A DNA stretch of 64,000 nucleotides from Melioribacter roseus P3M-2. GTDB lineage: Bacteria > Bacteroidota > Ignavibacteria > Ignavibacteriales > Melioribacteraceae. Position numbers and translations under genes: made by a program. The notes beneath the pieces were generated by a model that was not told the origin of the DNA, ran no database searches, and saw only the letters and a list, made by a program, of their open reading frames with translations. The stretch lies in NCBI RefSeq assembly GCF_000279145.1, contig NC_018178.1:1798001-1862000 (forward strand), read 5' to 3'. Of the stretch, positions 8,612 to 32,036 are shown one piece after another. Numbering within the stretch: position 1 is the stretch's first letter; the number at the start of each line of letters is the position of its first letter.

Positions 8612-8623
8612 AGGAAATCAAAC

Positions 8624-9634
8624 ATGAAAAAAATAAAAGTCGCTTTTTTTTCAATACCGCCGAAAGAAAAAAATTATATAAAAAGAAGGTTGGACAAAAA
8701 CAAATTTGAGCTCTTTTTCTTCAAGGACGAGCTCGCCGCCGACAATCCGGTTATTAAAGACGCCGATGTCATCTCAGTTTTTATTTATGACAAAGTGGAC
8801 AGGAACATTATCGATAAAGCAAAAAAGTTGAAATTAATCGCAACGAGGAGCACAGGATTTAATCATATCGACACCGAATATGCCAGGAAAAAGAAAATTG
8901 CCGTTGCGAACGTCCCTTATTACGGCGAAAATACTGTGGCGGAGCATACTTTTGCGCTAATTTTAACATTATCGAGAAATATTCACAAAGCTTACGTAAG
9001 GTCGCAGCAAAGTAATTTCTCTCTCGAAGGTTTGCGCGGCTTCGATTTGAGAGGCAAAACTCTCGGAGTAATCGGCGCAGGCAGCATCGGCGTCCACGTA
9101 ATGAAAATTGCAAAAGGTTTCGGGATGAAAGTTCTTGCTTACGACGTTAAACAAAACCATATACTGGAAGAACTTCTCGATTTCAAATATGTCGATCTGG
9201 AAACTCTGTTGAAATCCTCGGATATAATTACGCTCCACTGCCCTTATAACAAAAGTACGCATCATTTAATTAATATGAATAATATCGAACTGGTAAAAAA
9301 AGGCGCGCTCTTTATCAATACCGCGCGCAGCGGACTTATCGAGCCGAGAGCGCTCTACTATGCAATCGACAAAGGTATTTTCGGAGGAGCGGGGCTCGAC
9401 GTGTTCGAAGGGGAAGAACTGCTTAAGGAAGAAAATCAAATGTTGACAAAAAATGTTGAGCTGGAAAAAGTCGACGCTATTTTGAAAAGAAATCTGCTGC
9501 TGAGACGCGAAAATGTGATTTTAACTCCTCACATGGCTTTCGATTCTCAAGAGGCTATTGAACGAATACTTGAAACCACTGCGGAAAATATCAGCGCTTT
9601 TTTTGAAAACAGAAATTACTATAAAGTGATTTAA
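8624..9634 (+). CDS. D-isomer-specific 2-hydroxyacid dehydrogenase (D-lactate dehydrogenase-like)
   Basis: NAD-dependent reduction of a 2-oxoacid to a D-2-hydroxyacid; D-lactate from pyruvate is the most likely reaction in this subfamily. The Rossmann motif LGVIGAGSIG sits in the middle of the chain, with the NTARSGLIEPRALYYAI signature and the catalytic Arg/Glu/His context further on (TARSG, DVFEGEE, LTPHMAF). 336 residues is standard. It begins 12 bp after the first ABC half and overlaps the second ABC half by one base (TAATG), so all three are probably co-transcribed. Substrate specificity is not decidable from the sequence. Confidence 0.88.
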   Translation: MKKIKVAFFSIPPKEKNYIKRRLDKNKFELFFFKDELAADNPVIKDADVISVFIYDKVDRNIIDKAKKLKLIATRSTGFNHIDTEYARKKKIAVANVPYYGENTVAEHTFALILTLSRNIHKAYVRSQQSNFSLEGLRGFDLRGKTLGVIGAGSIGVHVMKIAKGFGMKVLAYDVKQNHILEELLDFKYVDLETLLKSSDIITLHCPYNKSTHHLINMNNIELVKKGALFINTARSGLIEPRALYYAIDKGIFGGAGLDVFEGEELLKEENQMLTKNVELEKVDAILKRNLLLRRENVILTPHMAFDSQEAIERILETTAENISAFFENRNYYKVI

Positions 9635-18088: not shown

Positions 18089-18116
18089 ATTAAATTATTA
18101 CACAGTAAGGATAATA

Positions 18117-18146
18117 AAAAAGCCGGCTTTGGAGAGCCGGCTTTTT
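18117..18146 (-). terminator. Strong intrinsic terminator of cytochrome unit A
   Basis: AGCCGGCT (18121-18128) pairs with AGCCGGCT (18135-18142), extended by four A-T pairs on each side. Read on the minus strand it ends in a run of Ts, a textbook Rho-independent terminator 18 bp after the last cytochrome gene. Confidence 0.85.
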
Positions 18147-18163
18147 CTCTTTCGAGGGGAAAA

Positions 18164-19159
18164 TCAGAACAAATCGATTTTGCCGTTGATATGTTTGGAT
18201 TTATCGGTAATGTTGCCATACTGGTCAACTACGCCGACGTGGCAAATTCCGCATGCTTTGAGTTCGGCGTCTTCATGACCTGTAGGCGGTAAACCGTGAC
18301 AGGTGCCGCAAGCCGCCTGGCTTCCGTCCACTTGATTCCATTTGGGAGAAAAATTATTGCCGGTCATTTTATCGGCAGTATAGATAAACGGATAGTCGGA
18401 ATTTTCTTTTTTGAATTCGAAATTACCGTGGCAGTACGTATTGCTGCATGTATTGTTGGCAAAATCATAGGACGGATTAGAAGGTCCGGAAGATGTAAAC
18501 GCGCCGAAGATAACTTCCGCGTGCGGAGTATTGTCGATATGTCCCGGAGCTTCAAAACCGGATGGCAGTATATGGCATTCCATGCAGGAGACTTTTCCCG
18601 ACAATAACGAGGCATTCAAGTGAGCCTGGTGAGCTCCGACTCTGGGATCGGAAGTTTCTTTTGCGTTGTTGGTCGCTTGCGGCGGGGCTATGCTGCCGCC
18701 TTTGAAAAAGTCGCCGTGGCATGTGTTGCAGGCTTCGGGACCTCCAGCTTTATTGTGGCATGTCGTACAAGTTGGACTTGTAATTCCTCCGGCATAATCG
18801 TCGCCATGGCATTGAGCGCATTGCGACAGATCCCAGTTTGTGGATGCGATGAATCTGCCGTGGAAATTATCCGAACCCGGCAGCAATATCCCGTCAACAT
18901 GGACATTGATGGCGGGGTGACAATTTACGCAGCTTACGCCTGCAGTGCCTCCCGAATAATTCGAAGCATGGCATTGTTTGCAACTTTCCATACTATTATC
19001 TGTCAGCTTCTTGCCGTGGAAATTATCGGAGGATTGCGACAAAAATCCGGCGCCGTGAACGCTCAATTGAGCCGGCGGAGTAATATCCTCCTGAACATCG
19101 CTGCAGGAAGCTAAAACGAACAAAAGCGATAAAGCCAAATAATATTTAATATATTTCAT
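18164..19159 (-). CDS. Nonaheme c-type cytochrome lipoprotein with a CX4CH haem site
   Basis: Exported electron-transfer lipoprotein. The signal peptide ends in the lipobox LASC (cysteine near residue 19), predicting a lipid anchor, possibly in the outer membrane. It has eight CxxCH motifs (CKQCH, CVNCH, CAQCH, CTTCH, CNTCH, CMECH, CGTCH, CGICH) and one CSNTYCH site. The CX4CH followed by CxxCH pattern is known from Geobacter outer-surface cytochromes. It is the last gene of unit A, 15 bp after the 14-heme cytochrome. The proposed role, passing electrons across or outside the outer membrane, is inference. Confidence 0.85.
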   Translation of the reverse strand: MKYIKYYLALSLLFVLASCSDVQEDITPPAQLSVHGAGFLSQSSDNFHGKKLTDNSMESCKQCHASNYSGGTAGVSCVNCHPAINVHVDGILLPGSDNFHGRFIASTNWDLSQCAQCHGDDYAGGITSPTCTTCHNKAGGPEACNTCHGDFFKGGSIAPPQATNNAKETSDPRVGAHQAHLNASLLSGKVSCMECHILPSGFEAPGHIDNTPHAEVIFGAFTSSGPSNPSYDFANNTCSNTYCHGNFEFKKENSDYPFIYTADKMTGNNFSPKWNQVDGSQAACGTCHGLPPTGHEDAELKACGICHVGVVDQYGNITDKSKHINGKIDLF

Positions 19160-19174
19160 AGTCTACCCAAAAAT

Positions 19175-20380
19175 TTAATTGTGACAATAACCGCAGAATC
19201 CCACGCCTTTAATGCCGTCGGGTCGAGCGTTGGCGTCAGTATGGCACGAGTAGCATACGGAATTAAAATCGGAATGCCAATCGCCGTCGGAGCCGTTCAT
19301 GAATCCGCTCATGTGGGTTTTCGGGTTAGTTCCTTTAACGCCGTCGTTATCGACATGGCATAGAACGCAATTCGGGTCTGCGCCCTGAAGGTCGTGACAC
19401 GACGAACACGATTCAATATCCCGCTTAGCAAGGATTGCATGCTGTCCGCCTCCTGTGCCTACGCCGATTGTTACAAAATTCGGTTTGGAGTGCGAAGCCG
19501 GCATGGCACCTTCGAGCGCGTAATCGCCGCCGCCGTTATTATGGCACTCGGCGCAGAAGGTTTCTACCTGATGGCACGTCTGGCAATCGGCGGACTTTGT
19601 GTTTGCGTCGATACCGTGCGAAAAACGATAATTCAAATCATGAACCCGCGTCATCTGTTGCATCTTTGCGTCGTCTGTAAACTTATGCGGAGAATACGGA
19701 ACGTAAAAATCCGATTCGGTATTTGTTTCGGTCATCATGGTAGTTGAAACGTGACAAGCCTCGCAGAAACTATTGTCGTGACACATTTCGCAATTATTAT
19801 CCATTGCAGTAGCTTTGAATTTGTGAGCTTTGAAGAAGCCAACCTGCCGATGGTCTTCCGGAATTAAATCGACGGTCGAAATGTGACAGACTTCGCAGTC
19901 GCTTACCGCTACCGATTTATTGTTGTGGCAGGTAATACAACCGCTCATAGGCGGATTGACGCTCTTCGACTCAAAGCCGTATTCTACCTCGTCGAGCCCT
20001 TTATGGCATGCGGCGCATTCCATCTTTTGTTCGTTGATATGAAAACTGTGGTTGAATATCAACGTACTTTTTGTTTGAATCAGAGGCTCGAAAACATCTT
20101 CATAATGACACATTTGACAATTATCCGTATCCTCAACGTCGTGACACGTAGCGCAGACATCTTTTTCCGGCAATAGTCTGTCGTTGAGTTTTGTGCTGTT
20201 TGCCACATTTGTATGACACGACGCACAGTCTGTTACTTCACTATGAAGCTCGTGAGAAAATTTAATGACGTCTTTGTTGGTTTTACGTTGCTCGTTGCCT
20301 TTGTTCGCATCGATTGCTGCGACTGTAAGAAAAACAAGAATCAAAAGGCTGAGCGGCAGATAAATAAATTTTATTTTCAT
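19175..20380 (-). CDS. 14-heme c-type cytochrome
   Basis: Periplasmic or secreted multiheme cytochrome, 401 residues. An N-terminal hydrophobic stretch (FIYLPLSLLILVFLTVAAI) acts as signal peptide or anchor. I count 14 CxxCH motifs, from CASCH near residue 52 to CGYCH at the extreme C-terminus, plus many free histidines for bis-His ligation. That is one haem per about 29 residues. It lies 6 bp downstream of the outer-membrane barrel gene, suggesting the two proteins work together. No catalytic domain was recognised; electron transfer is the likely role. Confidence 0.88.
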   Translation of the reverse strand: MKIKFIYLPLSLLILVFLTVAAIDANKGNEQRKTNKDVIKFSHELHSEVTDCASCHTNVANSTKLNDRLLPEKDVCATCHDVEDTDNCQMCHYEDVFEPLIQTKSTLIFNHSFHINEQKMECAACHKGLDEVEYGFESKSVNPPMSGCITCHNNKSVAVSDCEVCHISTVDLIPEDHRQVGFFKAHKFKATAMDNNCEMCHDNSFCEACHVSTTMMTETNTESDFYVPYSPHKFTDDAKMQQMTRVHDLNYRFSHGIDANTKSADCQTCHQVETFCAECHNNGGGDYALEGAMPASHSKPNFVTIGVGTGGGQHAILAKRDIESCSSCHDLQGADPNCVLCHVDNDGVKGTNPKTHMSGFMNGSDGDWHSDFNSVCYSCHTDANARPDGIKGVGFCGYCHN

Positions 20381-20386
20381 AATGGT

Positions 20387-21652
20387 CTACAAGTTTGTAT
20401 TAAACAAGTAATTAACTTTGAATAAAACTCTGAAATCGTTTTTGTATATCTTGTTGTTGAAATACTGCGTTTGGAAATCGAAAGACAGAATTCTCCATGG
20501 CCTGAAGTTAAGTCCGGCCAGAAGAGCGGTTATGGAATTTGTCTCGTCGTCGCTAGAAAGTTTGTAGCTTGTATATGTAACTCCGACCGAAGGAGTAATT
20601 AATCCTTCCACAAACGACTTTGCCAAATAGAGTGAAGCGGCGTCGAGCTCTCCAGCGTCGCCTAAAGTCTTACGGTATGAAATCGAACCGTACTGCGTAG
20701 TAACGCCGAGACTCAATCGCGATGAGTGTTCGGAGTCGAATTTTACGTCGCCGTATTTGAAGAAGAGACGATATAGCCTCGAAATTTTATAGTCGAATCC
20801 GCCTTCGATTTCCTGGGAATTTCCGTAATCGAATACTGAGAAGATTGAATTATAGCGTATTCTGGGTTCTCTGTAATTATAATAAAAGTTGAGACCCAGT
20901 TTATCGGTTGCGTTAACTCTTCCGTCGAATTCGACTTTCGAAGTCACTTCGTAATTCAAATCATATTCGTAACGCGTGCTTACGTCGACGAGGTTGTTGT
21001 ATGAATAATACGCGTCGGCAGAGAGTAATTTGTATTGATTAGATTTCGATTGAATCAGAATTGTAACCGGATCGAGATTCTCGTCGAGGCGCTCGGCGTA
21101 ATAGTCGACCGACTTGAAATTCTTGTCGATATACGAAACGCCGAGACGGAAATTTTTTAATGCTACCGTTTCAAAACGACCTCCCATAATATAATCGTTG
21201 CTAAGGTCGTCGGTTAATTCGAGTTTTTGATAAGCCGGCAGGTTACCGCCGTAGAAACCTGTCAGCGAAAATCCGGCATATTTTAATTTGAGATTAATAC
21301 CGTCGAAAAGACCGCCGGCTACAGGAGTAAAGAGCGGCTGTCTTCCTAATTTTACGGTTGCAATGCCGAAAAGATCGCGCGCTTCGAGATAGAGATTATA
21401 AAAACGAACTCGGGGATCGGCGTCGAGCGCATTGCCCAGATTGCTTTCGAAATTAAAACGCGTACGCAAAGAGAACTTCGAGTAATTTGCGTTTAGATTT
21501 AAAGCCTGATACGTTCTGAAAAAAGTTTCAGATGAACTGGCGGTATTATATCTTTCGAACGAATAAAACGAAGACGTAATTCTGCCGTTAATATTTTGAG
21601 CGTTTACCAAGAACGGCAGGAATAGAAAGAATATTATTAATAACCTTTTCAT
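20387..21652 (-). CDS. Outer-membrane beta-barrel protein within cytochrome cluster
   Basis: 421 residues with a signal peptide (MKRLLIIFFLFLPFLVNAQ), then alternating hydrophobic/polar strands rich in aromatic and Tyr/Arg residues (FSLRTRFNFES, VRFYNLYLEARD, FDFQTQYFNN). It ends in VNYLFNTNL, all typical of a porin-like barrel. It lies between a tetraheme and a 14-heme cytochrome gene with gaps of 6-9 bp. By analogy with porin-cytochrome conduits (MtrB, Pcc porins) it may hold a cytochrome across the outer membrane; this is inference, as I see no direct homology to those porins. Confidence 0.75.
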   Translation of the reverse strand: MKRLLIIFFLFLPFLVNAQNINGRITSSFYSFERYNTASSSETFFRTYQALNLNANYSKFSLRTRFNFESNLGNALDADPRVRFYNLYLEARDLFGIATVKLGRQPLFTPVAGGLFDGINLKLKYAGFSLTGFYGGNLPAYQKLELTDDLSNDYIMGGRFETVALKNFRLGVSYIDKNFKSVDYYAERLDENLDPVTILIQSKSNQYKLLSADAYYSYNNLVDVSTRYEYDLNYEVTSKVEFDGRVNATDKLGLNFYYNYREPRIRYNSIFSVFDYGNSQEIEGGFDYKISRLYRLFFKYGDVKFDSEHSSRLSLGVTTQYGSISYRKTLGDAGELDAASLYLAKSFVEGLITPSVGVTYTSYKLSSDDETNSITALLAGLNFRPWRILSFDFQTQYFNNKIYKNDFRVLFKVNYLFNTNL

Positions 21653-21661
21653 GTTCTGCCT

Positions 21662-22207
21662 TTATTTTTTGGGGACAGGGTGCGCAATTTGAGGCCACAT
21701 TTTCGCAAAATCGAATTCTTTGTAGGTCGGACTTTCTTCGTTGTGGCAAGTTTTGCAATATTTTTCGATTTCGGCTTCGTCTTTCCAGATTCTCAAACCG
21801 TTTTTAACGGATTCTTCGCGACTTTTCATAACTTTCATCGATTTGTAGTCTTCTCCGGGACCGTGGCAGGTTTCGCATTGAACGCCGTCTTCAACTGAGA
21901 ATTTTTTGCCGAGTAATTTTTTGTCCACATCGTAACCGCTTGCGTGGCATTTAAGACATTGGGGATTTTCAACGGCTTTAACTTCTCCGGAAAGTTTATT
22001 TGCTTCTTCAGTTAACAGTGTTTTGTAAGCGTTGGCATGTTTGCTGTTTTGCCAGATTTTCAATTGTTCGCCTTGCTTTTCGTTTTTGTGGCACATACCG
22101 CATGCTTCTGCGCCTATATACCCGTGTTCCTGTGCGTTCATGGTATCCGGCAACAAAAAGAAACATAGAACTGCAACTATGGTAAGGGTAATACCATTTC
22201 TAAACAT
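21662..22207 (-). CDS. Tetraheme cytochrome c554-like protein
   Basis: Exported tetraheme cytochrome with CGMCH, CLKCH, CETCH and CKTCH sites and the spacing and context (GAEACGMCHKNEK, IWQNSKHANAY, CLKCHASGYD, GVQCETCHGPG) of the cytochrome c554 family. An upstream in-frame start at 22264 exists, but ATG 22207 is preceded by GGAGGAAA and begins a normal signal peptide ending NAQ, so I use it; 181 residues. It probably passes electrons between the CbcL-like quinol enzyme encoded upstream and the larger cytochromes downstream. Confidence 0.87.
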   Translation of the reverse strand: MFRNGITLTIVAVLCFFLLPDTMNAQEHGYIGAEACGMCHKNEKQGEQLKIWQNSKHANAYKTLLTEEANKLSGEVKAVENPQCLKCHASGYDVDKKLLGKKFSVEDGVQCETCHGPGEDYKSMKVMKSREESVKNGLRIWKDEAEIEKYCKTCHNEESPTYKEFDFAKMWPQIAHPVPKK

Positions 22208-22289
22208 ATTTCCTCCGCGCTTTATTGATAGTTGTTTATTTAATTTATGTTGAATATAGCTCAATCAATATTAAGAGGCAACCGTCTTA

Positions 22290-22742
22290 TTATCTTTGTT
22301 TATCTCCTTCTTCTTCAGGATTCAATTTGTTTTCGAGCCACAATCTCAATTCCGGATCGTTTTCGAGTTCTTTGTCGAAAACGGCGTCGGGGTCGAGATT
22401 GTTTTCACTCAATGTTTTTGTAAATAGAAGCGTAGAATTGCTGAGTCGTTTTTCTTCTCTTTTCCCGGCTTTATATTCTTTCCATTCTAGAAGAACTTTT
22501 CTGAAATGTTTTTCGTGATGATGTCTGTAGTTTTTGAGCGTCATTTTACCGTCGATCCAGGTCAAACTCATCGGGTATTCATGCGGATGGAAAATCACAA
22601 AGAACCAATGCCATACCAAAATAGCAAGCGTAGCAAGAATGGCTTCGTAGAAATGGATCAGTTCGCTAACTTTAATCAACCATACGGGAGCCCAGTCGCC
22701 GACTACCGTCGGGAACCAGAGAATAAATCCTGTGGCGCCCAT
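22290..22742 (-). pseudogene. C-terminal part of frameshifted CbcL-like protein (cytochrome b transmembrane helices 3-4)
   Basis: This reading frame is not an independent gene: its first ATG falls inside a transmembrane helix. The same frame stays open upstream to about 22811 and encodes the missing continuation of the gene at 22760-24694 (YTEKAEYWALIWGTVIMG...). It supplies helix 3, helix 4 with haem-ligand histidines (ELIHFYEA, LVWHWFFVIFHPHEYP) and a charged cytoplasmic tail. Inserting one A in the minus-strand run at 22812-22816 joins the two frames. See the paired entry. Confidence 0.8.
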
Positions 22743-22759
22743 TATTACAGTGCCCCATA

Positions 22760-24694
22760 TTAAAGCCCAATATTCCGCTTTTTCGGTATAATCGTATTTG
22801 TCGTAAATCGGTTTTTCTTTTTAATTCTCAGATAATAAAGTATGGTGTCCCTTGCTTCGATAATGTCGGTATGTTTCGGCAATAGATTTTTGAGAACGTC
22901 TCTTCCGCGGGCAGTGAAAAGAAGATAGAAAACGTGATAAACGCCTACGCCGATCATCACGACAGCCGCGCCGCGGTGAATATATTGGCGCACGGTTTCA
23001 GTCATTCCGAAATACATCAAGAGCTCAGCCCACCAGCTTGTGTGGTACTTGAGAGCAAATCCAGTTATTGCCAGAACTATGAACGAAACTAGCAACAGAA
23101 AATGTTGAACGACCTCGCTCTTTGTAAAACGCGGTATTGTAATTTCTTTTTCGGTTCTTTTTTTCTTCTTTTTAATTTCATATAAGAAGATAAGCAGATT
23201 GTGCAATATCATACCGCCGATAACCGATACAATCAGCCAGAAATAAATATCGGTAACAATTTTTTCAACTTTTGCGGCTTCTTCATTTATAGTAACGTGA
23301 GAATAACTTTGGGAAAATACGGGGGTCGCTTCCGGATGACATTTTTGACAGGTTTCAGTTACGTTTGAAATATTTACTTTGGATTCCGGATGTTCCTTAG
23401 GCAAAATTTTATGAACCCCGTGACAATCGACGCACATAGCGGCGTCTTTATCGCCCCGCATTACCGCTAGCCCGTGATAGCTGTCCTGATACGATCTAGC
23501 CTGATTGCCGTTGATTCCGAAACGTTCGGCAATGCGCGGATTTTCGTGGCAAACCATACAGGTTTTTTGCTGTATTTTACGCGTTTCGGCTCTTTTATCG
23601 CCGCCTGAAATCGGCGTTATGTCGTGCTCGTTATGGCAGTCGTTGCAAACAGGAGATTCGCGATAGCCTTTTTTAGCGCGAATCCAGTGAATCGATTCCA
23701 TATATTCTTCGGCTTCTTTTTCGTGGCATTGACCGCATGTTTCAGGCAGATTGAAAGACGATATCTTGGAACCCTGCTGAACTTTGTTTTTTATATCGTG
23801 AACGCCGTGGCAGGTTGTGCAAGTGGCTCCTTTATTGCCTTCCTTTACCATCATGCCGTGTACCGAGGCACTGTATTTCAGACCCGGACTTACCAAACCG
23901 ATATCGTATTTTTTTGCCATCTCCGGATTGTCGTGACACTTACTGCAAGTAGTTCCGATATTAACCGGATTCACAGGACTCGAGGGGTGGTCGACTTTTT
24001 TGATATTATGCGAACCGTGACAGTCCCAGCATTTAGCCGCGTCGTCAATGCCTTCGCTCAAAGCTATTCCATGGATGCTTTCTTTGTGCTGAGCGGCAAT
24101 ATCCACATGGCATAGATAGCAGTTCGCAACTTCCGTAATTTTTAGATTTTTCGGGTGTTTAGAAATATTTTGAGCGATATAGCTGTGGCAGTCTGCACAC
24201 TCGAGCTTGCTGTGAACGGAAGTGGGCAGCGTTAATTTAACGTCTTCCTTTTTGTGACAGCTGAGGCAATTGTCTTTACTTATCTTTTCGGCATGATAAC
24301 TCGTAAGCAGAGGTTTGGCTTCGTGGCATTTCGAACAGTAGGTTCTCGAATTCGTTGACAATGAATTCGACGGCTTTTTGACATTATGCGAGCCGTGACA
24401 GGAAACGCATCCCGGCGCGTTTTTAATTTTCAACCTGTGATGGATGTCGTTTTCGACCGAAGCCATCTTGTCGTCATGGCACATTGTACAATCGACCTTT
24501 TCGGCGCCTTTGTCCATATGTTCTTCGTCTACTACATCCTGATGACAATCCTGACATTCGATAGCTTCGAAATGGACGGATTTTTCGATGCTTACTTCGT
24601 GACAGTCGAGGCAATTAAAATCTTGAGCATTTAATTCATGGTTAAATAATATAAATAGAGAACACGCAGTAAAAAGAACGGCTTTACGAATCAT
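22760..24694 (-). CDS. 16-heme cytochrome c fused to cytochrome b domain (CbcL-like), frameshifted
   Basis: Probable inner-membrane quinol oxidase of the periplasmic cytochrome network. It has a signal peptide (HELNAQ), then 16 CxxCH motifs over about 450 residues (CLDCH to CQKCH). Then come a transmembrane anchor near residue 490 and the first two helices of a diheme b-type domain (VVQHFLLLVSFIVLAITGFAL, IHRGAAVVMIGVGVYHVFYL). After KKKN the frame runs off into FTTNTIIPKKRNIGL and stops at 22760, while the true continuation is in another frame. The domain order matches Geobacter CbcL, which has fewer haems. GGAG precedes the start. First gene of unit A. Confidence 0.85.
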   Translation of the reverse strand: MIRKAVLFTACSLFILFNHELNAQDFNCLDCHEVSIEKSVHFEAIECQDCHQDVVDEEHMDKGAEKVDCTMCHDDKMASVENDIHHRLKIKNAPGCVSCHGSHNVKKPSNSLSTNSRTYCSKCHEAKPLLTSYHAEKISKDNCLSCHKKEDVKLTLPTSVHSKLECADCHSYIAQNISKHPKNLKITEVANCYLCHVDIAAQHKESIHGIALSEGIDDAAKCWDCHGSHNIKKVDHPSSPVNPVNIGTTCSKCHDNPEMAKKYDIGLVSPGLKYSASVHGMMVKEGNKGATCTTCHGVHDIKNKVQQGSKISSFNLPETCGQCHEKEAEEYMESIHWIRAKKGYRESPVCNDCHNEHDITPISGGDKRAETRKIQQKTCMVCHENPRIAERFGINGNQARSYQDSYHGLAVMRGDKDAAMCVDCHGVHKILPKEHPESKVNISNVTETCQKCHPEATPVFSQSYSHVTINEEAAKVEKIVTDIYFWLIVSVIGGMILHNLLIFLYEIKKKKKRTEKEITIPRFTKSEVVQHFLLLVSFIVLAITGFALKYHTSWWAELLMYFGMTETVRQYIHRGAAVVMIGVGVYHVFYLLFTARGRDVLKNLLPKHTDIIEARDTILYYLRIKKKNRFTTNTIIPKKRNIGL

Positions 24695-24898
24695 TTAGTC
24701 TCCAGATAATTTATGCGAAAGTAAAAGTAATCAAATATCGTGCTGAAAAAATGAACGGCTTAAAATTCGAAATTCTATCCGATAATCCGTTTTCTTTATT
24801 AATAATGAGAATCTATTTTCGTATTAATAAGATAATGGACTTATATATCCTGTCTAAAAATATTTACTGGGGAGGATTAAGTCAATAAAAATTTTGAT

Positions 24899-24930
24899 TA
24901 AAAAAATCCCGCAGTTTTTGCTGCGGGATT
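24899..24930 (-). terminator. Strong intrinsic terminator of cytochrome unit B
   Basis: AATCCCGCAG (24905-24914) pairs with CTGCGGGATT (24921-24930) around a 6-base loop. On the minus strand it is followed by a T-run, 8 bp after the last response-regulator stop. It separates units A and B; the rest of the 24695-24898 gap holds no gene I can support and presumably contains the unit A promoter. Confidence 0.85.
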
Positions 24931-24937
24931 AATCGAG

Positions 24938-26080
24938 TTATTTTTCGAAAAAAGAGCCCGCGACCAAATACCAGTCTTTATCTTCCAGATTTTCGATTCC
25001 GCTGAATGAGCCCTCTGTGCCGTTTGCGCTTTTGACTTTATCTTTAAAAGTTTCGAGATATCTGTCGATTTCTTCCTGGTAGAAAGCCACCGCGCTTTTG
25101 CCGATTTTTAGCTCGGCGAGTTCGGATTCCAAATTGTCCGCATCGAGCGTGCAAATCCAGTGTTTACCGTAAGGAGTAATGTCGAGCAGATCGATGTTTT
25201 CTCTCAACTCGTTGTTTATTGCTTTTACCTGTCCGCTTAAGGGCGAGGCAAATTTGATTACCCGGTTTTTTTGAATCAGACTGAACAAAGTCTGTCCTTT
25301 TTTAATAGTCATACCGAGATTCGGAAATTCGATATTGTCGATTTTACCGACGATTTTCTTGGCAAAATCGTCGATACCGATTCTGGCGGCACCCTCCTCG
25401 GTAATTGCAGCCCAGCAGTGATTTTCCGAAATAAAAACTCCGCCCGGAATCGAGAATTCACCGCGCCCGATTTTTTCGGTCTCCGGCAAATGAGAAATGT
25501 GAACCCGGGGCTTGAGCTGTTTTTTGATACGCTCCTGTCTTTTAATGAGGCATTTTTTGGTGAAATCGAGCAACTCGTCTTCTGTAAACGGCTTTTGAAC
25601 GTAATCCATAGCTCCGTATTTCATACATTCCACGGCCGATTCAACGGTGGCATAACCGGTGATGATTATTACGTCGATATCGGGTCTCAGGTGTTTTATC
25701 GTCTTGGTTACCTCTACGCCGTCCATTTCGGGCATCTTCAGATCTGTAAATACGAAATCGTAATGATGACTTTGAACAAGAGTTATTGCTTCGGGACCCG
25801 AATTAACGGTGTCGACCGAGTAGCCGTCGAGCACCAATATTTTCCTGAAACTGTCGAGCACCACGTCTTCGTCGTCGACGCAAAGGATTCGGGCTTTGGG
25901 ATTTTGCACTTCGGCTCTCTTTAAGGTTTTGACTTCTTTGCCGTAATCTACATTCACGACTTCGGCAAGAACGGCTTCTCTTTCCTTGCGGAGTTTTGAC
26001 TCTTCATATTTTTTGATGAATATTCTGATTAAAACGTCCGCAATTATTAGCACGATTAAAAGTAATACGAATAGCGACAT
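24938..26080 (-). CDS. Membrane-anchored response regulator with GcvH-like output domain
   Basis: N-terminal transmembrane helix (residues 3-23), a short linker, a receiver domain (about 64-180; acidic pair D69-D70, phospho-acceptor D113 in FTDLKMPEMDG, conserved K in VQKPFT). The C-terminal region (about 205-340) resembles glycine-cleavage H protein: WAAITEEGAARIGIDDFA, GMTIKKGQTLFSL, ASPLSGQVKAINNELREN, PYGKHWICTLD. At the position where GcvH carries its lipoyl-lysine I find Asn in QKNRVIKFASP, so lipoylation is doubtful. There is no DNA-binding domain. It sits with the histidine kinase and a paralogue at 26105, so probably acts in the same redox-signalling pathway. Confidence 0.8.
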   Translation of the reverse strand: MSLFVLLLIVLIIADVLIRIFIKKYEESKLRKEREAVLAEVVNVDYGKEVKTLKRAEVQNPKARILCVDDEDVVLDSFRKILVLDGYSVDTVNSGPEAITLVQSHHYDFVFTDLKMPEMDGVEVTKTIKHLRPDIDVIIITGYATVESAVECMKYGAMDYVQKPFTEDELLDFTKKCLIKRQERIKKQLKPRVHISHLPETEKIGRGEFSIPGGVFISENHCWAAITEEGAARIGIDDFAKKIVGKIDNIEFPNLGMTIKKGQTLFSLIQKNRVIKFASPLSGQVKAINNELRENIDLLDITPYGKHWICTLDADNLESELAELKIGKSAVAFYQEEIDRYLETFKDKVKSANGTEGSFSGIENLEDKDWYLVAGSFFEK

Positions 26081-26104
26081 ATCTATTTCTCCTGTTGTTA
26101 AAAA

Positions 26105-26923
26105 TTATCTGTCGGAACTGCACGGAATTAAATATTCGATTTCATCTTTCATATTCACAGGGATCACTTTATAGAACCATCCTTCGAAATACGGGTCTTT
26201 TTCGATTAATCCGGGTTTTTCGAGCAATTTCTCGTTTCGATCGATGATGCGACAACTTGCGGGCATGCTTAAACTGTGTATTAAGCCGTCGCTGTCGGTT
26301 ATGTAGGCAGCCGCCGAAGCCTGTAAAATTTTGTCGTTAATTTGAAGGAGCTCAATCTTTTGGACGCCTTCTATTAATTTAACGAATAGATCCGTTGCGC
26401 CCGTAACGAAACTGCCGTATGAAAATTCTTCGTTTATCATATTGACCGGCAGATCGGGCTTTATCCACGAGCCGTATCCGAAACGATAGTATTTGGAAGG
26501 ACAGGGCACATAGAGCAAATCGTTCTTGTTTTTAACCGCTTTGCGATTCAGTTTACTAAAGGCCATACCTCTTTTGATAACGGCGGAAAGTTCGTCGATT
26601 GTAAAAGGTTTGGGAAGAAAATCGAACGCGCCGAGCTTTATCGACTTTACCGCCATCTCCGGAGTCGTATAACCGGTAATCATTATGACGGGAGAGTCGA
26701 ATCCGCCAGAGCCGATCGACTTGAGAATTTCAAAACCGTCTTTGTCGGGCAGCATAATGTCGCAAATAACCAGGTTGTATTTGTTTCCTTTGATTTTTTG
26801 CATAGCCGCTTCGTAAGTCTCGGCCGAATCAGACGTAAGATTGTTGAGCTTGCATATTTTAATAATGGAATCGATTATGACCGATTCGTCGTCGATTATC
26901 AATATGTCGAAATTGTTATTCAT
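26105..26923 (-). CDS. Response regulator with GcvH-like output domain
   Basis: Receiver domain at residues 5-120 (phospho-acceptor D55 in ICDIMLPDKDG, MITGYTT, PKPFTIDEL). The C-terminal region again resembles GcvH, with ILQASAAAYITDSDG, then SMPASCRIIDRNEKL, then DPYFEGWFYKVIP, close to the H-protein signature DPYGEGW. There is no lysine in a clear lipoyl position and no HTH. ATG at 26923 is preferred to an in-frame codon at 26962, since it gives MNNNFDILIIDDES. It overlaps the histidine-kinase stop by eight bases, implying coupled translation. Confidence 0.82.
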   Translation of the reverse strand: MNNNFDILIIDDESVIIDSIIKICKLNNLTSDSAETYEAAMQKIKGNKYNLVICDIMLPDKDGFEILKSIGSGGFDSPVIMITGYTTPEMAVKSIKLGAFDFLPKPFTIDELSAVIKRGMAFSKLNRKAVKNKNDLLYVPCPSKYYRFGYGSWIKPDLPVNMINEEFSYGSFVTGATDLFVKLIEGVQKIELLQINDKILQASAAAYITDSDGLIHSLSMPASCRIIDRNEKLLEKPGLIEKDPYFEGWFYKVIPVNMKDEIEYLIPCSSDR

Positions 26924-28808
26924 AATTTTCAGCCGGAAGTTTGATTGAGAATGTGGTTCCACTGCCCGGTTCGCTTTTAACCGAAATTGAGCCGTCGTGG
27001 TTGTCTATTATTCCCCATACTACCGATAGTCCGAGCCCGGTTCCCTTTTGTCCTTTGGTTGTAAAGAACGGTTCGAATATTCGACTTAAATGTTCCTGGG
27101 GAATGCCGCATCCGTTATCTGAAATTTCGATCTCGACGAATTTTCTGGCTCCTGCATTGTCGATTCTTTCCCACTTTTGCCAGTCGTCGTTGAACGAAGC
27201 GCACATTTCGACGTAGCCTTTTCCGGGAACTTCGAACTTGAAAACGGGTCCGCCGCATACGGGACAATTTGAATTTCGGTCGAGCAATGACACGTCGCAT
27301 ACAGGACAATGAATGCTCGCGTGAGAATTTTTTTCAATCGGAATACCGAAGTAATGTTGCGATCTTCCGTAGATCGGATCGATGAATACCGGACCTTCGT
27401 TATCGCCCGATTTTAATTTTACACGGATTGAAGACATCCCGGCAATTTTATTTTCATTATCGATCAAATTGTGATTCTTGGGACAAAGCGCCGCTTTGAT
27501 ATGCGTATATCCTTTGGGCGGCAAGGTGAGTTGTTTGGTCTTTATTACAATTTCTCCTCCTTCATTGCCGATTGCGTCGATTGCATTCAAAATAAGGTTT
27601 AACAATACCTGCTGAATTTGATTCTGATCGGCGGCAATTTGCGGCAAGTTGCTGTCGAGTATTTTTGTAAGTTTTATATTGTTGAGAGACAACTGATTAT
27701 GCACGACCGATTCGGTTCTTTCGATAATTTCGTTGATATTGATTAGATTTTTCTTGGGCGACGATTGTCGGGAAAAATCGAGAAGGCTTCTTACAATATC
27801 GCGGCAGCGCATTGTTTCTCTAACGATTACCTGGAGGTCTTCCTGCAATTCGGGATTGTCCTTGGCTCGTTTCATTAAGTAGCTGCTGTATGTGAGTACG
27901 CCTGTTAAAGGATTGTTTATTTCGTGCGCCACGCCCGCTGCAAGCTTGCCGAGCGAAGCCATTTTATCCGACTGAAATAATTGTTGTTGCGTTTCGTAAA
28001 GTTTTTTGGTCATGTTGTTGAACGATTTGGCGAGGTATCCCAGTTCGTCGTTGCCAATCTCTTTTATTTCGTAAGTTAAATTTCCGGCGGCAATCTGATT
28101 GGTAGCTTTAATCAATTCTTTTACCGGGCGGTCTACCCAACGTTTTACGAATATGCTTATGATTATACCGATTGCAAGAATCGATACGATTGTAAAAATC
28201 AATTCCTGAATTTCGTTTCGTTTGATTGTGGCGTCGATTTCTTCGAGCGATATTGTAATATCGAGCACTCCGAGAACCGACGCATTCTCGGGATGGGCAT
28301 GACAATCGGCTTCGTAACACGATTTCTCGTTGTAAATCGGATTTATTATTCCCATAATTCTCGGGTTCTTGTCGCCGAGTTTGAAAATACGCGTCCTTTG
28401 TTTTATCGGCAGACGCTCGAGCGGTTTATTCTCTGCATGGCAGGCGTAACAGCTTTCGGCTTTTTTATCGAGCATTTTTCCGAGGTCTTTCGGATTGCTC
28501 GAATAAATTATTCTGCCTTCTTTATTGTAAATTCTGATATTGTCGATTGTTTTATCCTGACCGATTGTCTTCACTATTTCGTCAACATATTCTCTTTGGT
28601 TGAGCAACATTCCGTAACGAGTGCTGTTCTTTATCGTTTCGCTGAGTTGATTGGCATGACGTTCGACTTCTGCGAGTAGACAATTCGTCTGGAAATTTAT
28701 TTTGAAATACGCATTGACGCCTATTATCGAGACGACGGTCAAACTTACTATAAGAATTAACTTCAGTCCGATCTTTCTGAAAAATTGTATTTCATTGAGT
28801 CCGTTCAT
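26916..28808 (-). CDS. Sensor histidine kinase with haem-c motifs and a zinc-ribbon-like insertion
   Basis: 630 residues. TM1 is at about 13-33. The periplasmic sensor contains CYACH (120-124) and CYEADCH (164-170), a CxxCH and a CX4CH haem-attachment motif. TM2 is at about 202-220, HAMP at about 221-273, and the phospho-acceptor is H295 in GVAHEINNPL. The ATPase domain has N-box LILNAID (405-411), but a roughly 125-residue insertion (about 430-556) separates it from the G boxes DNGCGIP (564-570) and GTGLGLS (589-595). The insert carries paired CPVC motifs (501-504, 515-518), a zinc-ribbon-like knuckle. It overlaps the 13-heme cytochrome gene by four bases and the response regulator by eight. 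Predicted role: redox or electron-flux sensor for this cluster. Confidence 0.85.
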   Translation of the reverse strand: MNGLNEIQFFRKIGLKLILIVSLTVVSIIGVNAYFKINFQTNCLLAEVERHANQLSETIKNSTRYGMLLNQREYVDEIVKTIGQDKTIDNIRIYNKEGRIIYSSNPKDLGKMLDKKAESCYACHAENKPLERLPIKQRTRIFKLGDKNPRIMGIINPIYNEKSCYEADCHAHPENASVLGVLDITISLEEIDATIKRNEIQELIFTIVSILAIGIIISIFVKRWVDRPVKELIKATNQIAAGNLTYEIKEIGNDELGYLAKSFNNMTKKLYETQQQLFQSDKMASLGKLAAGVAHEINNPLTGVLTYSSYLMKRAKDNPELQEDLQVIVRETMRCRDIVRSLLDFSRQSSPKKNLININEIIERTESVVHNQLSLNNIKLTKILDSNLPQIAADQNQIQQVLLNLILNAIDAIGNEGGEIVIKTKQLTLPPKGYTHIKAALCPKNHNLIDNENKIAGMSSIRVKLKSGDNEGPVFIDPIYGRSQHYFGIPIEKNSHASIHCPVCDVSLLDRNSNCPVCGGPVFKFEVPGKGYVEMCASFNDDWQKWERIDNAGARKFVEIEISDNGCGIPQEHLSRIFEPFFTTKGQKGTGLGLSVVWGIIDNHDGSISVKSEPGSGTTFSIKLPAENYE

Positions 28809-29899
28809 CTTTTAATTGCCTCTCCGGGTTTGTCTTTTGGATACGATTTGTCGTCGTGACAATTATCGCAGCTTTTTATCCGGTACGTCGGTTCCTGATG
28901 ACAATTTTCGCATTCGAATTCAACGTGAACTTCGTCGAGAATCAATCCGGTAGCTTTGTGGTCGAAGTTGTCAACCGTCCAGATGCCGTGGCAGCTTTTG
29001 CATTCCTTTTTCAAGCCGGTAAATTTACCTTTTGTAACGTGGCATCTCGAGCATTTCAAATCGGAATGGAATTTGGAAATGTCGAAACCGGCTCGTTGTT
29101 TATGATTAAACGGAGGCTTTTCGATCTTCGCATGGCATACGGCGCACGAATTTACATCTTCGGTATCGTGACATTTGCTGCATTTCGAATGAAGTATAAC
29201 CGGCGATGCTTTCAAAGCCGATTTATTAACGGCATGGCATTTAACGCAGCTCTCGTTTCTATGGCAGTCGCTGCACTCGTATCCGAAAGTTTTGTTGTGC
29301 TCTTCGTGATAAAAAGTTACCAGTTTGCCGTCCGTAAAATCAGTAGTATAAACTTTTTTTACCGGCGCTTTAATTTCCGGGTGAATCGATTTTTTCTCTT
29401 TAGCTTCATACGACTCATTTTTTTGCGAGCCTGCAGGGGCATGACAGCTTACGCATTCTACTTCGCCGCTCCATTCGCGATGGCATGAAATGCAAAGACG
29501 ATGATAAGCAGCTTTAAGGTCGGGTTTGCTTATATCGTTTCTCTTGCGCTGAGGGCTATGACATTTGGAACAGCTGATAATATTTCCCGGCGGATTGTAA
29601 TGATGACAAATTCTGCAGTCGCCCGACATTACCGACATGTCGGAATGGGCATAATGGTCGAAAATCGAGGATTCGTAAAGATTCTTTTCTTTTATCTTGT
29701 CAATCTTTATAATTCGCGGCGCTTCTTCCGGCTTTTGGTCGATTCGTATTAATTCTTCTCTCGGACAATCTATCAGACACGGATTCTCTTTAGTAGGAAT
29801 ATCGCAAGAATGGCATGTTCTACATTCCAAATTTAATTTCGAATGCTGAGCAAACAGAATAAGAGGCGCCGTCAGTAAAATTAAAATTATTTTTTTCAT
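28805..29899 (-). CDS. 13-heme c-type cytochrome of Hmc-like complex
   Basis: Periplasmic cytochrome with signal peptide (MKKIILILLTAPLILFAQ) and 13 CxxCH motifs, the first CRTCH near residue 27 and the last CDNCH near residue 347. An unusual extra cysteine group near the N-terminus (CHSCDIPTKENPCLIDC) could bind a metal. It is encoded one base from the HmcC/NrfD-like membrane subunit (overlap at 29899). The predicted role is to exchange electrons between that quinol module and the periplasmic cytochrome pool, as HmcA or related cytochromes do in Hmc complexes. Confidence 0.87.
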   Translation of the reverse strand: MKKIILILLTAPLILFAQHSKLNLECRTCHSCDIPTKENPCLIDCPREELIRIDQKPEEAPRIIKIDKIKEKNLYESSIFDHYAHSDMSVMSGDCRICHHYNPPGNIISCSKCHSPQRKRNDISKPDLKAAYHRLCISCHREWSGEVECVSCHAPAGSQKNESYEAKEKKSIHPEIKAPVKKVYTTDFTDGKLVTFYHEEHNKTFGYECSDCHRNESCVKCHAVNKSALKASPVILHSKCSKCHDTEDVNSCAVCHAKIEKPPFNHKQRAGFDISKFHSDLKCSRCHVTKGKFTGLKKECKSCHGIWTVDNFDHKATGLILDEVHVEFECENCHQEPTYRIKSCDNCHDDKSYPKDKPGEAIKR

Positions 29900-31134
29900 T
29901 ATTTACCTCTGATAAAAAATTTGGTTTTGGAAGCCACGGGCTGCGGCACCGATACAATCGGGAATATCATCACAAAAGCTCGGAACAGAAGGATTTCGAG
30001 GGCTACAAATCCGAGCGTTACGAGTATCTCTCCGATTGAAGGGAAATAAGCGGCGAATTTATACGGCGGATTGTATGCTATAATGAAGTTGTTAATCCTG
30101 TTGAGCAATACTCCGAATATGACAAGAGCCGACCCGATAAAAAGTCCTGCGCGTGTTTTTGTGAGTTTGGGCGAAAGAAATATTCTGAGCGGAATTATAA
30201 TGCCGAAGAAAATTTCAATTAAAAATAGAACGCTTTCGACGCTAAACTCATTTAGATAAACGAAAGTTTGACGAATCACCATATCTCCGAGTTTAAAAGC
30301 GAGATAAATCCCCAACAAAGGAGCGACCATAGTGCCGAGATTGGAAAGGACTTTCAGCTCGGGCTTTAAGCCGAAAGACTTCGATGTAATGAGCGATTCG
30401 AAAATTACCATCGGAAACCCTACAGAAATAGCCGAGAGGAGAAAGAGCAACGGCAGTATCGGAGTTTGCCAGAGCGGATGCATCTTCGGTCCGGCTATTA
30501 CCATCAACGTTCCTAACGACGATTGATGCAAACACGAGAGTACAACCCCGGCGATAATAAAAATGAACATTGTTTTGTCGAGAGTTTTATCGAGTATTCT
30601 CAGCAGGGAATCGACGGGCTTGTTTAATGCCGAAAGGAACCCCGGCAGATTAACTCTGCCGATAAATCTTTCCGTTACAATCGGTATGAATTCAATATAA
30701 AGAACCGTAAGATATGCCATCACGCACATACCGACTTCGAACAATACGGAATTTCCGTTCCACATTATGAGAGGATGCCATATATAATACCAGCGTCCGA
30801 GGTCCATAGCAACGCTGAAAGCCACAAAAGTATAGCCGAGCAGCGCCGTAAGAAGAGCCGGACGCACTATAACATGGTATTCTTCTTTATGCATGATATG
30901 GCCCAGAGCGGCAGTAGTAAACCCGCCGGCGGCAAGCGCCACTCCGGCTGCAACGTCTATTCCAATCCAGATGCCCCACGGATACTGATTGCTCAAATTG
31001 GTTACCGCGCCGAGTCCGAATATTAATCTTGCCAGTAAAAACAAAATACCGACTGTTGCAAAAGCAAAAATGACAATTACGCCGGGAGTGAAATATTTTG
31101 TTTTAAGCGGAGTCGGTTTCATATAATCTTCCAT
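29899..31134 (-). CDS. NrfD/HmcC/HybB-like integral membrane quinol subunit
   Basis: 411 residues with about ten hydrophobic helices and little soluble sequence: the polysulphide-reductase NrfD family that exchanges electrons with menaquinol. Typical segments are YPWGIWIGIDVAAGVALAAGG, FVAFSVAMDLGRWYYIWHP and SCLHQSSLGTLM, as in HmcC and HybB. The start overlaps the stop of the ferredoxin gene (TAATG) and its last base overlaps the 13-heme cytochrome start, giving a tightly coupled three-gene module. Confidence 0.9.
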   Translation of the reverse strand: MEDYMKPTPLKTKYFTPGVIVIFAFATVGILFLLARLIFGLGAVTNLSNQYPWGIWIGIDVAAGVALAAGGFTTAALGHIMHKEEYHVIVRPALLTALLGYTFVAFSVAMDLGRWYYIWHPLIMWNGNSVLFEVGMCVMAYLTVLYIEFIPIVTERFIGRVNLPGFLSALNKPVDSLLRILDKTLDKTMFIFIIAGVVLSCLHQSSLGTLMVIAGPKMHPLWQTPILPLLFLLSAISVGFPMVIFESLITSKSFGLKPELKVLSNLGTMVAPLLGIYLAFKLGDMVIRQTFVYLNEFSVESVLFLIEIFFGIIIPLRIFLSPKLTKTRAGLFIGSALVIFGVLLNRINNFIIAYNPPYKFAAYFPSIGEILVTLGFVALEILLFRAFVMIFPIVSVPQPVASKTKFFIRGK

Positions 31135-32036
31135 TATTCTTCCCCCTCTTCTGATTTTTTGCGATTTTTATTTATCCACATTACGCCGCCCAGCAGAGCA
31201 TATAATGCTATCGGGGGCAGGAAGTAGGCGAAAATCCCGTGCTGAATTGCTTCGGTAACGCCCGGAGCCGGGCTGTTGCCCAATTTGGGGAATTGCAGGT
31301 CTTCGAATTTTCTGCTTGCAAGATAGAGCCATGCAGTGCCGCCAACTTCGGTTTCGCCGTAAATGTGATTAATGTATCTGTCGGGGTAGAGTTCGATTTT
31401 ACGCCGTGCAATGTCAATCAAATCTTTTCTTCTGCCGTATGTAAGAGCTTCCATAGGGCAAATTTCGACGCATGCCGGCAACTTGCCTTTTGAAGTTCTG
31501 CCGAAGCAGAAATCGCATTTTTTAATTTCGGGTTGAATCGCTTTGTGGTATTCAAAGGCGGGAATTTGGAACGGACAGGCAACCATACAATAACGGCAGC
31601 CGATGCACTTATTAGTATCCCATATTACGCTGCCGTTTTCTTCTTTCGAAAATGCGCCGACAATACAAGCCGAGACGCATGCGGGATGGTCGCAATGCAT
31701 GCATTGTACTTTTACGTCGATCGGAAATTTGGGGTAATCATCGAATTCATATTCGTTTACCACCGTCAAAGAAGTGTGGTCGGGTCGCCGCATTTTTTTC
31801 ATAACATCCCTGTTGTCGTAAGTTTCCAGAGGCGGGGTCGGCATGTTATGAGCCGTTTTGCATGCCCATTCGCATTTTCGGCATCCTACGCATACAGTCG
31901 TATCCACCAGTACGCCCATTCTGTCGTCGGACAAAATGTTTTTCGGAGCGGCTTTAGCTTTTTGTGGCAGTCCTGCAATTACAGAGCCTGCAACCGCCGC
32001 TGTTTTGATAAAATTCCTTCTTGTTTGCTTCGACAT
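31134..32036 (-). CDS. HmcB-like periplasmic four-cluster ferredoxin with Tat signal and C-terminal anchor
   Basis: Tat substrate (TRRNFIKTAAVAGSVIAG) carrying the cysteine groups for several [4Fe-4S] clusters (CVGCRKCEWAC, CMHCDHPACVSAC, CIGCRYCMVAC, CDFC with CVEIC), as in HmcB, HybA and DmsB-like subunits. A C-terminal transmembrane helix (FAYFLPPIALYALLGGVMW) anchors it. It pairs with the NrfD-like protein encoded just downstream and should relay electrons between the quinol site and the 13-heme cytochrome. First gene of unit B; AGGAGGAAAA is a strong ribosome site. Confidence 0.92.
   Translation of the reverse strand: MSKQTRRNFIKTAAVAGSVIAGLPQKAKAAPKNILSDDRMGVLVDTTVCVGCRKCEWACKTAHNMPTPPLETYDNRDVMKKMRRPDHTSLTVVNEYEFDDYPKFPIDVKVQCMHCDHPACVSACIVGAFSKEENGSVIWDTNKCIGCRYCMVACPFQIPAFEYHKAIQPEIKKCDFCFGRTSKGKLPACVEICPMEALTYGRRKDLIDIARRKIELYPDRYINHIYGETEVGGTAWLYLASRKFEDLQFPKLGNSPAPGVTEAIQHGIFAYFLPPIALYALLGGVMWINKNRKKSEEGEE

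Follow-up and report, generated by a model that had tools for sequence, protein, structure and literature searches.

How might Melioribacter roseus P3M-2, a member of the class Ignavibacteria, pass respiratory electrons from its inner membrane to acceptors outside the cell? The question is raised by a unit of multihaem cytochrome genes on the minus strand (24694-18164) of the 64,000-nucleotide stretch of contig NC_018178.1 that was analysed here (positions 1,798,001 to 1,862,000, hereafter the window). We consider it likely, with a probability of about 0.75, that this unit encodes an outer-membrane conduit of the porin-cytochrome (Pcc) type which is fed by the oxidoreductase CbcL and moves respiratory electrons out of the cell. 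Direct support for this reading comes from gene content, haem motifs, kept gene order, the predicted fold of a beta-barrel, a lipobox and membrane histidines that are conserved among relatives of CbcL. The value of the locus lies in a single unit that leads from quinol oxidase to cell surface and, even more, in the way inner-membrane modules change across the class while the conduit is conserved.

A probable porin-cytochrome unit with a core conserved in the Ignavibacteria

The unit and its boundaries are made up as follows.

22763..24694, minus strand: CbcL-type quinol:cytochrome oxidoreductase, N-terminal 16-haem domain and first transmembrane helices; the frame stops early
22290..22742, minus strand: C-terminal membrane part of CbcL, shifted by one base into another frame
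21662..22207, minus strand: tetrahaem cytochrome c554-like protein, presumed periplasmic carrier (signal peptide recognised by eye; PF13435, 74.4 bits)
20387..21652, minus strand: outer-membrane beta-barrel of 421 amino acids (aa) (AlphaFold2 model and structural matches)
19175..20380, minus strand: 14-haem c-type cytochrome, 401 aa, presumed to sit in the barrel from the periplasm (14 CxxCH; PF14522, 64.1 bits)
18164..19159, minus strand: nine-haem lipoprotein cytochrome, 331 aa, presumed surface end (TIGR01904, 56.8 bits, cut-off 27; lipobox)
18116..18147, minus strand: strong terminator-like hairpin after the lipoprotein gene (13-pair stem, T run)
24905..24930, minus strand: strong terminator-like hairpin before CbcL, dividing the unit from the upstream genes (10-pair stem, T run)

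All five products and 43 haem motifs of the first-pass annotation were recovered where it had placed them: 16 CxxCH in CbcL, four in the c554-like protein, 14 in the 14-haem cytochrome, and eight CxxCH plus one CX4CH in the lipoprotein. When the letters of the joined unit proteins were shuffled 500 times, CxxCH appeared 0.35 times on average and three times at most. The stretch 18164-32036 holds 56 of the 208 CxxCH-type DNA patterns of the 3.30-Mb genome, for which a backward-pattern control gave 104 genome-wide. Intergenic gaps from CbcL through c554, barrel and 14-haem gene to the lipoprotein gene measure 82, 9, 6 and 15 nucleotides (nt). The strong terminator noted at first pass corresponds to the 13-pair terminator-like hairpin at 18147-18116. 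Both bounding hairpins are supportive only, because the scan for such structures returned 20 strong sites against 16.8 expected, one of them a 14-pair stem on the plus strand within a histidine kinase gene.

Of the 245 genomes searched in the class, 157 carry a barrel of this family, and they represent 81 of 129 genera; in the genome of M. roseus the family is single-copy. Across a sample of the phylum, 50 of 345 genomes carry it, namely 49 of the class (M. roseus included) and one outside; in this sole outside match (G347) the barrel gene adjoins a 12-haem relative of the 14-haem gene, and a 19-haem cytochrome is encoded nearby. The nearest named relative (L088) is a metagenome-assembled genome (MAG) filed as Melioribacter roseus, whose barrel is 94% identical. 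Neighbourhoods were compared in 60 hand-picked stretches (59 of the class plus G347) and in the best 80 of 131 loci from a collection scan, which lean to close relatives. Removal of copies left 132 distinct barrels for synteny by tblastn. L186, from outside the class, had no barrel at the synteny threshold, though one open reading frame (ORF) matched at 23%; loci L079-L087 stood outside the analysis, and L009-L038 were only listed and measured. In 128 of the 132, no more than 300 nt separate the barrel from a 14-haem gene behind it; a lipoprotein gene follows within 2.2 kb in 121, and 106 have a c554 relative within 1.5 kb upstream (125 barrels had that much upstream sequence). The conduit core itself was known before; its spread through the class and its consistent order are new here.

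The AlphaFold2 model of the barrel, based on 58 sequences, has 24 strands, a mean predicted local distance difference test score (pLDDT) of 86.6 and a predicted template modelling score of 0.75. Foldseek matched it to ushers, MOMP, AlgE and other pores, and a second structural search placed TonB-dependent receptors on top (5fp2_B: Z 20.7, root-mean-square deviation 4.2, 346 residues aligned) with ushers lower. TonB-dependent receptor barrels have 22 strands and usher barrels 24. Because the modelled strands fill residues 20-420, the protein would have no room for a plug domain. MtrB was absent among the 50 matches listed in each of the two structural searches, an absence that excludes nothing. 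The model thus came out with 24 strands, like wide barrels, and not as the narrow porin that the first-pass annotation had named as evidence against a conduit, although a shared barrel fold proves no function.

For the 14-haem cytochrome, the first 150 residues were modelled well and residues 28-201 match the cytochrome c7-like PDB chain 8k9e_A by sequence (E 4.9e-11). Among 124 distinct homologues with at least 11 motifs, 105 have 14 motifs, nine have 12, six have 11, three have 13 and one has 20. No lipobox was found in 124 homologues by a strict detector, which also missed half of the lipoproteins; the protein is presumably periplasmic.

The lipobox of the window lipoprotein (LASC) is followed by SD, placing Ser at +2. 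Its homologues were collected as 124 ORFs of more than 200 aa with at least four CxxCH; a lipobox was recognised in 102, and several of the 22 misses begin GC-S/A-E. Among the 102, Ser stands at +2 in 93 and Asp or Glu at +3 in 75, both features coincide in 68, and Asp at +2 occurs in none. Asp at +2 is the inner-membrane retention signal of enteric bacteria. As a control, 31 lipobox-like ORFs without haem motifs had an acid at +3 in six cases and both features in one. The Ser-Asp/Glu start is similar but not identical to SDDDD and SDDFE, the signals for lipoprotein export in Bacteroides fragilis and Flavobacterium johnsoniae (PMC5080379), and to judge from this start the nine-haem lipoprotein may be surface-exposed. 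The CX4CH motif is present in all 124 homologues, and their CxxCH count runs from four, the floor of the filter, to 28. A 28-haem version of 874 aa was seen in L104, on the same contig as L048.

CbcL is read in the window as two ORFs, 22763-24694 and 22290-22742. Relative to L088, in which CbcL is one intact ORF of 801 aa, the alignment has a single internal gap over the roughly 2.4-kb gene, a one-base deletion; the C-terminal stretch lies directly after the first part and has 92% identity to residues 143-320 of the C-terminal query from L088. The N-terminal part scores above the cut-offs of PF14522, PF14537 and DUF4405. The L088 protein carries PF01292 (Ni_hydr_CYTB; 53.3 bits, cut-off 30.1) and matches FdnI, the cytochrome b subunit of formate dehydrogenase N (1kqf_C, E 2.8e-5). 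CbcL is an N-terminal multihaem c domain (16 CxxCH) fused to a b-type membrane part, with PF01292 as found in L088. The fusion described from the sequence at first pass stands as regards its 16 motifs and membrane part; that the gene is frameshifted in the window had not been mentioned.

All 16 haem motifs and six invariant membrane histidines, candidates for haem binding, are kept in 30 of 30 close fused relatives of CbcL. These relatives were picked by length (781-899 aa) and for having the window CbcL as best reference, so that their openness and likeness are partly by construction; the set keeps duplicates (L039 and L088 are one contig). Outside this set, the fused proteins of CbcL type include versions with 18 haems, for example in L049, L051, L068, L072, L073, L111 and L115, as well as an 11-haem protein of 698 aa (L121).

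The frame break sits in an A-rich run. Roche GS FLX (454) reading is prone to miscounting runs of one base. Since the published M. roseus genome was sequenced on that instrument (PMC3534657), the frameshift is most likely a sequencing error. Alternatively, CbcL might be truly broken in this strain, with the NrfCD/Hmc-like complex encoded upstream or a separate ImcH-like cytochrome feeding the conduit. The one-base deletion relative to L088 would agree with this, as would the absence of a second CbcL match in the M. roseus genome at E up to 0.01, and other feeders are at hand: a NapC-type (ImcH-like) protein of 503 aa with six haems and three transmembrane helices is encoded elsewhere in the genome (about 1,376,943), M. 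roseus is reported to have an ImcH homologue (PMC6295460), and the NrfCD pair Mros1571/1572 has been proposed as a possible feeder of an outer-membrane Fe(III) reductase (Kadnikov 2013, PMC3534657). Nevertheless, the GS FLX read, the A-rich run, the intact gene of L088 and the many conduit-near relatives that are single ORFs of about 800 aa make a broken CbcL improbable.

We therefore return to a conduit fed by CbcL. CbcL in the inner membrane would oxidise menaquinol through its b-type membrane part and pass the electrons to its own 16-haem periplasmic head, from which the tetrahaem c554-like protein may ferry them through the periplasm. Conduction through the outer membrane would fall to the 14-haem cytochrome inside the wide barrel, and the surface nine-haem lipoprotein could hand the electrons to Fe(III) or another outside acceptor. 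Both the outward direction of flow and the final acceptor are presumed in this scheme. The path from inner membrane through periplasm to outer membrane, which had been proposed from the order of the genes, has gained support from the synteny of 132 barrels, the wide-barrel model and the lipobox with Ser at +2.

Several observations weigh against this scheme. The barrel had no Pfam match at E up to 1 and no PDB sequence match at E up to 10, and its role as a conduit therefore rests on context. The 14-haem cytochrome was modelled poorly, at a mean pLDDT of 58.7 over its full length and with residues 202-380 for the most part under 50; as most of this model is unreliable, we infer insertion of this cytochrome into the barrel from the gene pair. 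CbcL is interrupted in the window sequence, and Ignavibacterium album, which has pcc genes, is said not to reduce solid Fe(III) oxides (PMC4245776). The missing family match and structural matches that include AlgE and MOMP could be taken to mean that the barrel is an ordinary porin and that the cytochromes merely store or shuttle electrons in the periplasm. We regard this as very improbable, given that the 14-haem gene so consistently follows the barrel (128 of 132), that none of the 102 lipobox homologues has Asp at +2, and that the modelled barrel is wide.

Known conduits and the possible electron acceptor

The four-gene core of c554-like protein, barrel, 14-haem cytochrome and lipoprotein has, by description, the layout of the pcc cluster IALB_1840-1837 of I. 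album JCM 16511, which comprises an associated c-cytochrome of the periplasm, a porin, a further periplasmic c-cytochrome and an outer-membrane c-cytochrome whose motifs are atypical (Shi 2014, PMC4245776). The I. album periplasmic cytochrome, with 400 aa and 14 haem motifs, was the largest Pcc one then known and is only distantly related to other groups (PMC4245776). Loci of our set such as L119 are much like that layout; L119 has products of 177 aa and four haems, a 421-aa barrel, 400 aa and 14 haems, and 308 aa with six haems plus CX4CH. A Geobacter-like pcc porin has been reported for M. roseus (PMC6137239), and porins of two Ignavibacteria genomes were described as OmbB-like, such clusters being found in M. 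roseus and I. album (PMC7399161). We considered and rejected a categorically new conduit, given the published I. album layout of the core (PMC4245776) and the M. roseus pcc already in print (PMC6137239). What the window unit adds to the I. album cluster is a CbcL gene in front.

The window unit combines a clustered barrel with a periplasmic and an outer-membrane multihaem cytochrome (their locations being presumed), as expected of a Pcc system. Conduits of this type are mostly known from Geobacter, where CbcL and ImcH genes lie apart from them. The Geobacter Omc/Ext clusters likewise group a periplasmic multihaem cytochrome, an outer-membrane integral protein and one or more redox lipoproteins; the window unit, likened to them by cluster content, differs in its 14-haem partner and gene order (PMC6148476). 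No CbcL gene is named inside the Omc/Ext clusters in the passages cited (PMC6148476). For the Pcc porins in print, 18 to 22 strands are predicted, so the 24 of the window barrel fall just outside, while its 14-haem partner is within the range of five to 14 haems of published Pcc periplasmic cytochromes (PMC4245776).

Shewanella MtrCAB also combines a porin with an inner and an outer multihaem cytochrome. MtrB/MtoB, however, are predicted to have 28 strands, and proteins of the MtrA type carry 10 haems (PMC4245776), compared with 24 modelled strands and 14 haems here. The MtrA-type model TIGR03508 matched only at E 0.048 (13.1 bits, cut-off 192.2), and an MtrCAB-type conduit was set aside on the 14 motifs in place of MtrA's 10 haems.

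Genes of the CbcL/MtoC/MtrH group, with three to 23 haem motifs, adjoin mtrAB or mtoAB in several species, and two homologues were counted in Ignavibacteriae (PMC6295460). As in the window, their products have c-type haems followed by a HydC/FdnI-like b-type membrane part, and the gene lies in the conduit cluster; the window CbcL has 16 haems against nine in that of G. sulfurreducens, and its conduit has the Pcc layout, not mtrAB (PMC6295460). Among openly licensed PMC papers, this was the only one found for Melioribacter together with CbcL, and in its passages M. roseus is named for ImcH (PMC6295460). The first-pass statement that no conduit of this composition had been described has therefore to be narrowed: the core and the M. 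roseus pcc are in print, as is CbcL beside mtrAB/mtoAB, and what holds is the placement of CbcL ahead of a core of the I. album type.

The seven-gene cluster of an anode-enriched MAG, Bacteroidetes_1, encodes six multihaem cytochromes, three of them with transmembrane helices, and one beta-barrel; its best matches were to Bacteroidetes or Ignavibacteriae, and the authors considered it a likely uncharacterised extracellular electron transfer cluster (PMC8258643). This cluster may belong to the same family, which in that case would be tied to an electrode biofilm. For Stygiobacter electus, no paper was found among openly licensed PMC papers.

The natural partner of the conduit may be something other than Fe(III), such as humics, a syntrophic partner or a donor from which electrons are taken up, with CbcL running either way. 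The barrel is spread over 157 of 245 genomes of the class, which is probably wider than the range of its known iron reducers. The pcc genes of I. album together with its reported inability to reduce solid Fe(III) oxides (PMC4245776) also favour such a partner, and CbcL/MtoC/MtrH homologues have been argued to be able to oxidise quinol or to reduce quinone (PMC6295460). On the other hand, Fe(III) is among the electron acceptors that M. roseus can use (PMC3534657), and its genome has only this one member of the barrel family, so we think a partner other than Fe(III) unlikely, if the most credible of the alternatives.

Inner-membrane modules and type IX-tailed cytochromes

In the window, oxidase, carrier and conduit lie in one unit, and in relatives the same conduit is found beside other respiratory complexes. 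Module labels refer to the strand of the barrel and were given wherever 6 kb or more of upstream sequence was available, as it was for 105 barrels; the remaining 27 of the 132 have less and are unlabelled. The modules were identified from Pfam and NCBIfam scans of examples. A CbcL-type module alone precedes 34 of the 105 barrels, Rieske/cytochrome b and/or a NapC/ImcH-like cytochrome precedes 18 (11 of them together with CbcL), complex I (nuoL-M-N) nine and a type IX-tailed cytochrome nine, and 35 have none of these modules. On a FastTree tree of the barrels, these five labels need at least 19 changes, compared with a mean of 56.3 when shuffled and a minimum possible of four; the counts are rough, given the long branches of the tree and its weakly supported deep nodes. 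Complex I upstream forms two groups that are kept apart by starred branches, and the downstream cases take a third place. Taken together, these neighbourhoods suggest that one core has been combined with different inner-membrane respiratory machines across the class.

The conduit was seen downstream of nuoN in ten loci (L056, L058, L061, L062, L063, L065 and L168-L171), of which L171, a further complex I case, sits on a short contig, and upstream of a run of nuo genes in three (L142, L149 and L151). A terminator-like hairpin lies between nuoN and the barrel in L056, and for that reason we claim linkage and not a single transcript, a joint operon of complex I and conduit having been considered and set aside. 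No such hairpin was found on the coding strand between the complex I genes and the conduit in L062. Rieske protein, cytochrome b and an 11-haem cytochrome, often with an ImcH-like six-haem cytochrome, lie upstream of the conduit in L059, L172, L173, L176, L178-L181, L185 and L187; this set is possibly a bc-type complex for extracellular respiration. No report of Rieske genes with a porin-cytochrome system in Ignavibacteria was found in openly licensed PMC papers.

We also found, in 20 loci, a multihaem protein with eight or nine CxxCH and a C-terminus resembling type IX sorting signals, on the strand of the barrel in 18 of the 20. A family scan of ten of these proteins confirmed the tail in every one, nine scoring above the TIGR04183 cut-off and L142 above that of PF18962. 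The multihaem cytochrome with the type IX sorting tail in L142 is encoded at 7479-9080. M. roseus itself encodes an eight-haem protein that passes TIGR04183 (L003:886-2307, at about 705,300 of the genome). Of 90 type IX tails in its genome, another is in a 667-aa frame near 2,382,567 with a cytochrome c7 match below cut-off, which is probably a second tailed cytochrome. Multihaem cytochromes with type IX secretion were not found reported in openly licensed PMC papers.

Tentatively, and with somewhat less than even confidence, we propose that the Ignavibacteria use one standard socket (c554-like protein, barrel, 11- to 14-haem cytochrome and surface lipoprotein) to which energy-conserving inner-membrane machines that differ between lineages are attached, namely CbcL, Rieske/cytochrome b with 11-haem and ImcH-like cytochromes, or complex I, and that cytochromes exported by type IX secretion take up the electrons outside. 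This would be a modular chain unlike those of Geobacter and Shewanella. If so, Rieske/cytochrome b or complex I coupled to an outer-membrane conduit could yield more adenosine triphosphate than CbcL or ImcH alone, and the exported multihaem cytochromes would represent an additional route to the cell surface. As the oxidase shares a unit with the conduit here and relatives have that conduit beside other complexes, the matching of conduit and energy conservation is testable by module swaps.

Neighbouring genes

Upstream of CbcL, beyond the dividing hairpin, the following genes were found.

24938..26080, minus strand: response regulator with a GcvH-like domain (PF00072 and PF01597)
26105..26962, minus strand: response regulator (translation read by eye)
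26916..28808, minus strand: histidine kinase with one CxxCH and one CX4CH N-terminal of HAMP, haem binding putative (HAMP, HisKA, HATPase)
28805..29899, minus strand: 13-haem cytochrome of an Hmc/NrfCD-like module (13 CxxCH; PF02085, 57.8 bits)
29899..31134, minus strand: NrfD/HmcC-like membrane protein, presumed quinol-reactive (PF03916, 73.1 bits; NF045714, E 2.9e-78, below cut-off)
31134..32036, minus strand: HmcB/HybA-like iron-sulphur protein (NF045715, E 3.4e-99, below cut-off; Fer4 domains)

The iron-sulphur and NrfD-like pair fits the published NrfCD pair Mros1572/1571 (PMC3534657). Probably the Hmc/NrfCD-like module with its kinase, as a transcription unit of its own, supplies this conduit with electrons or regulates it. 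Relatives of the kinase or regulator precede the conduit in 22 of 113 barrels (ORF-based synteny). The response regulator fused to a GcvH-like domain (24938-26080) and the kinase with haem-binding motifs beside it make an odd signalling pair.

Genes for haem synthesis and cytochrome maturation were seen on the other side of the conduit in relatives, in keeping with the conduit reading. Relatives of CcsA, HemA or HemC lie no more than 7 kb downstream in 18 barrels (for example L040, L042 and L114), 49 barrels having that much downstream sequence, and two large membrane proteins downstream of the conduit in other relatives are of the CcmF type. In L114 (13535-17977), as in several relatives, the genes behind the conduit encode a sigma-54 activator, a cytochrome with 10 haems and a rhodanese protein, and this rhodanese recalls that of Geobacter extHIJKL (PMC6148476).

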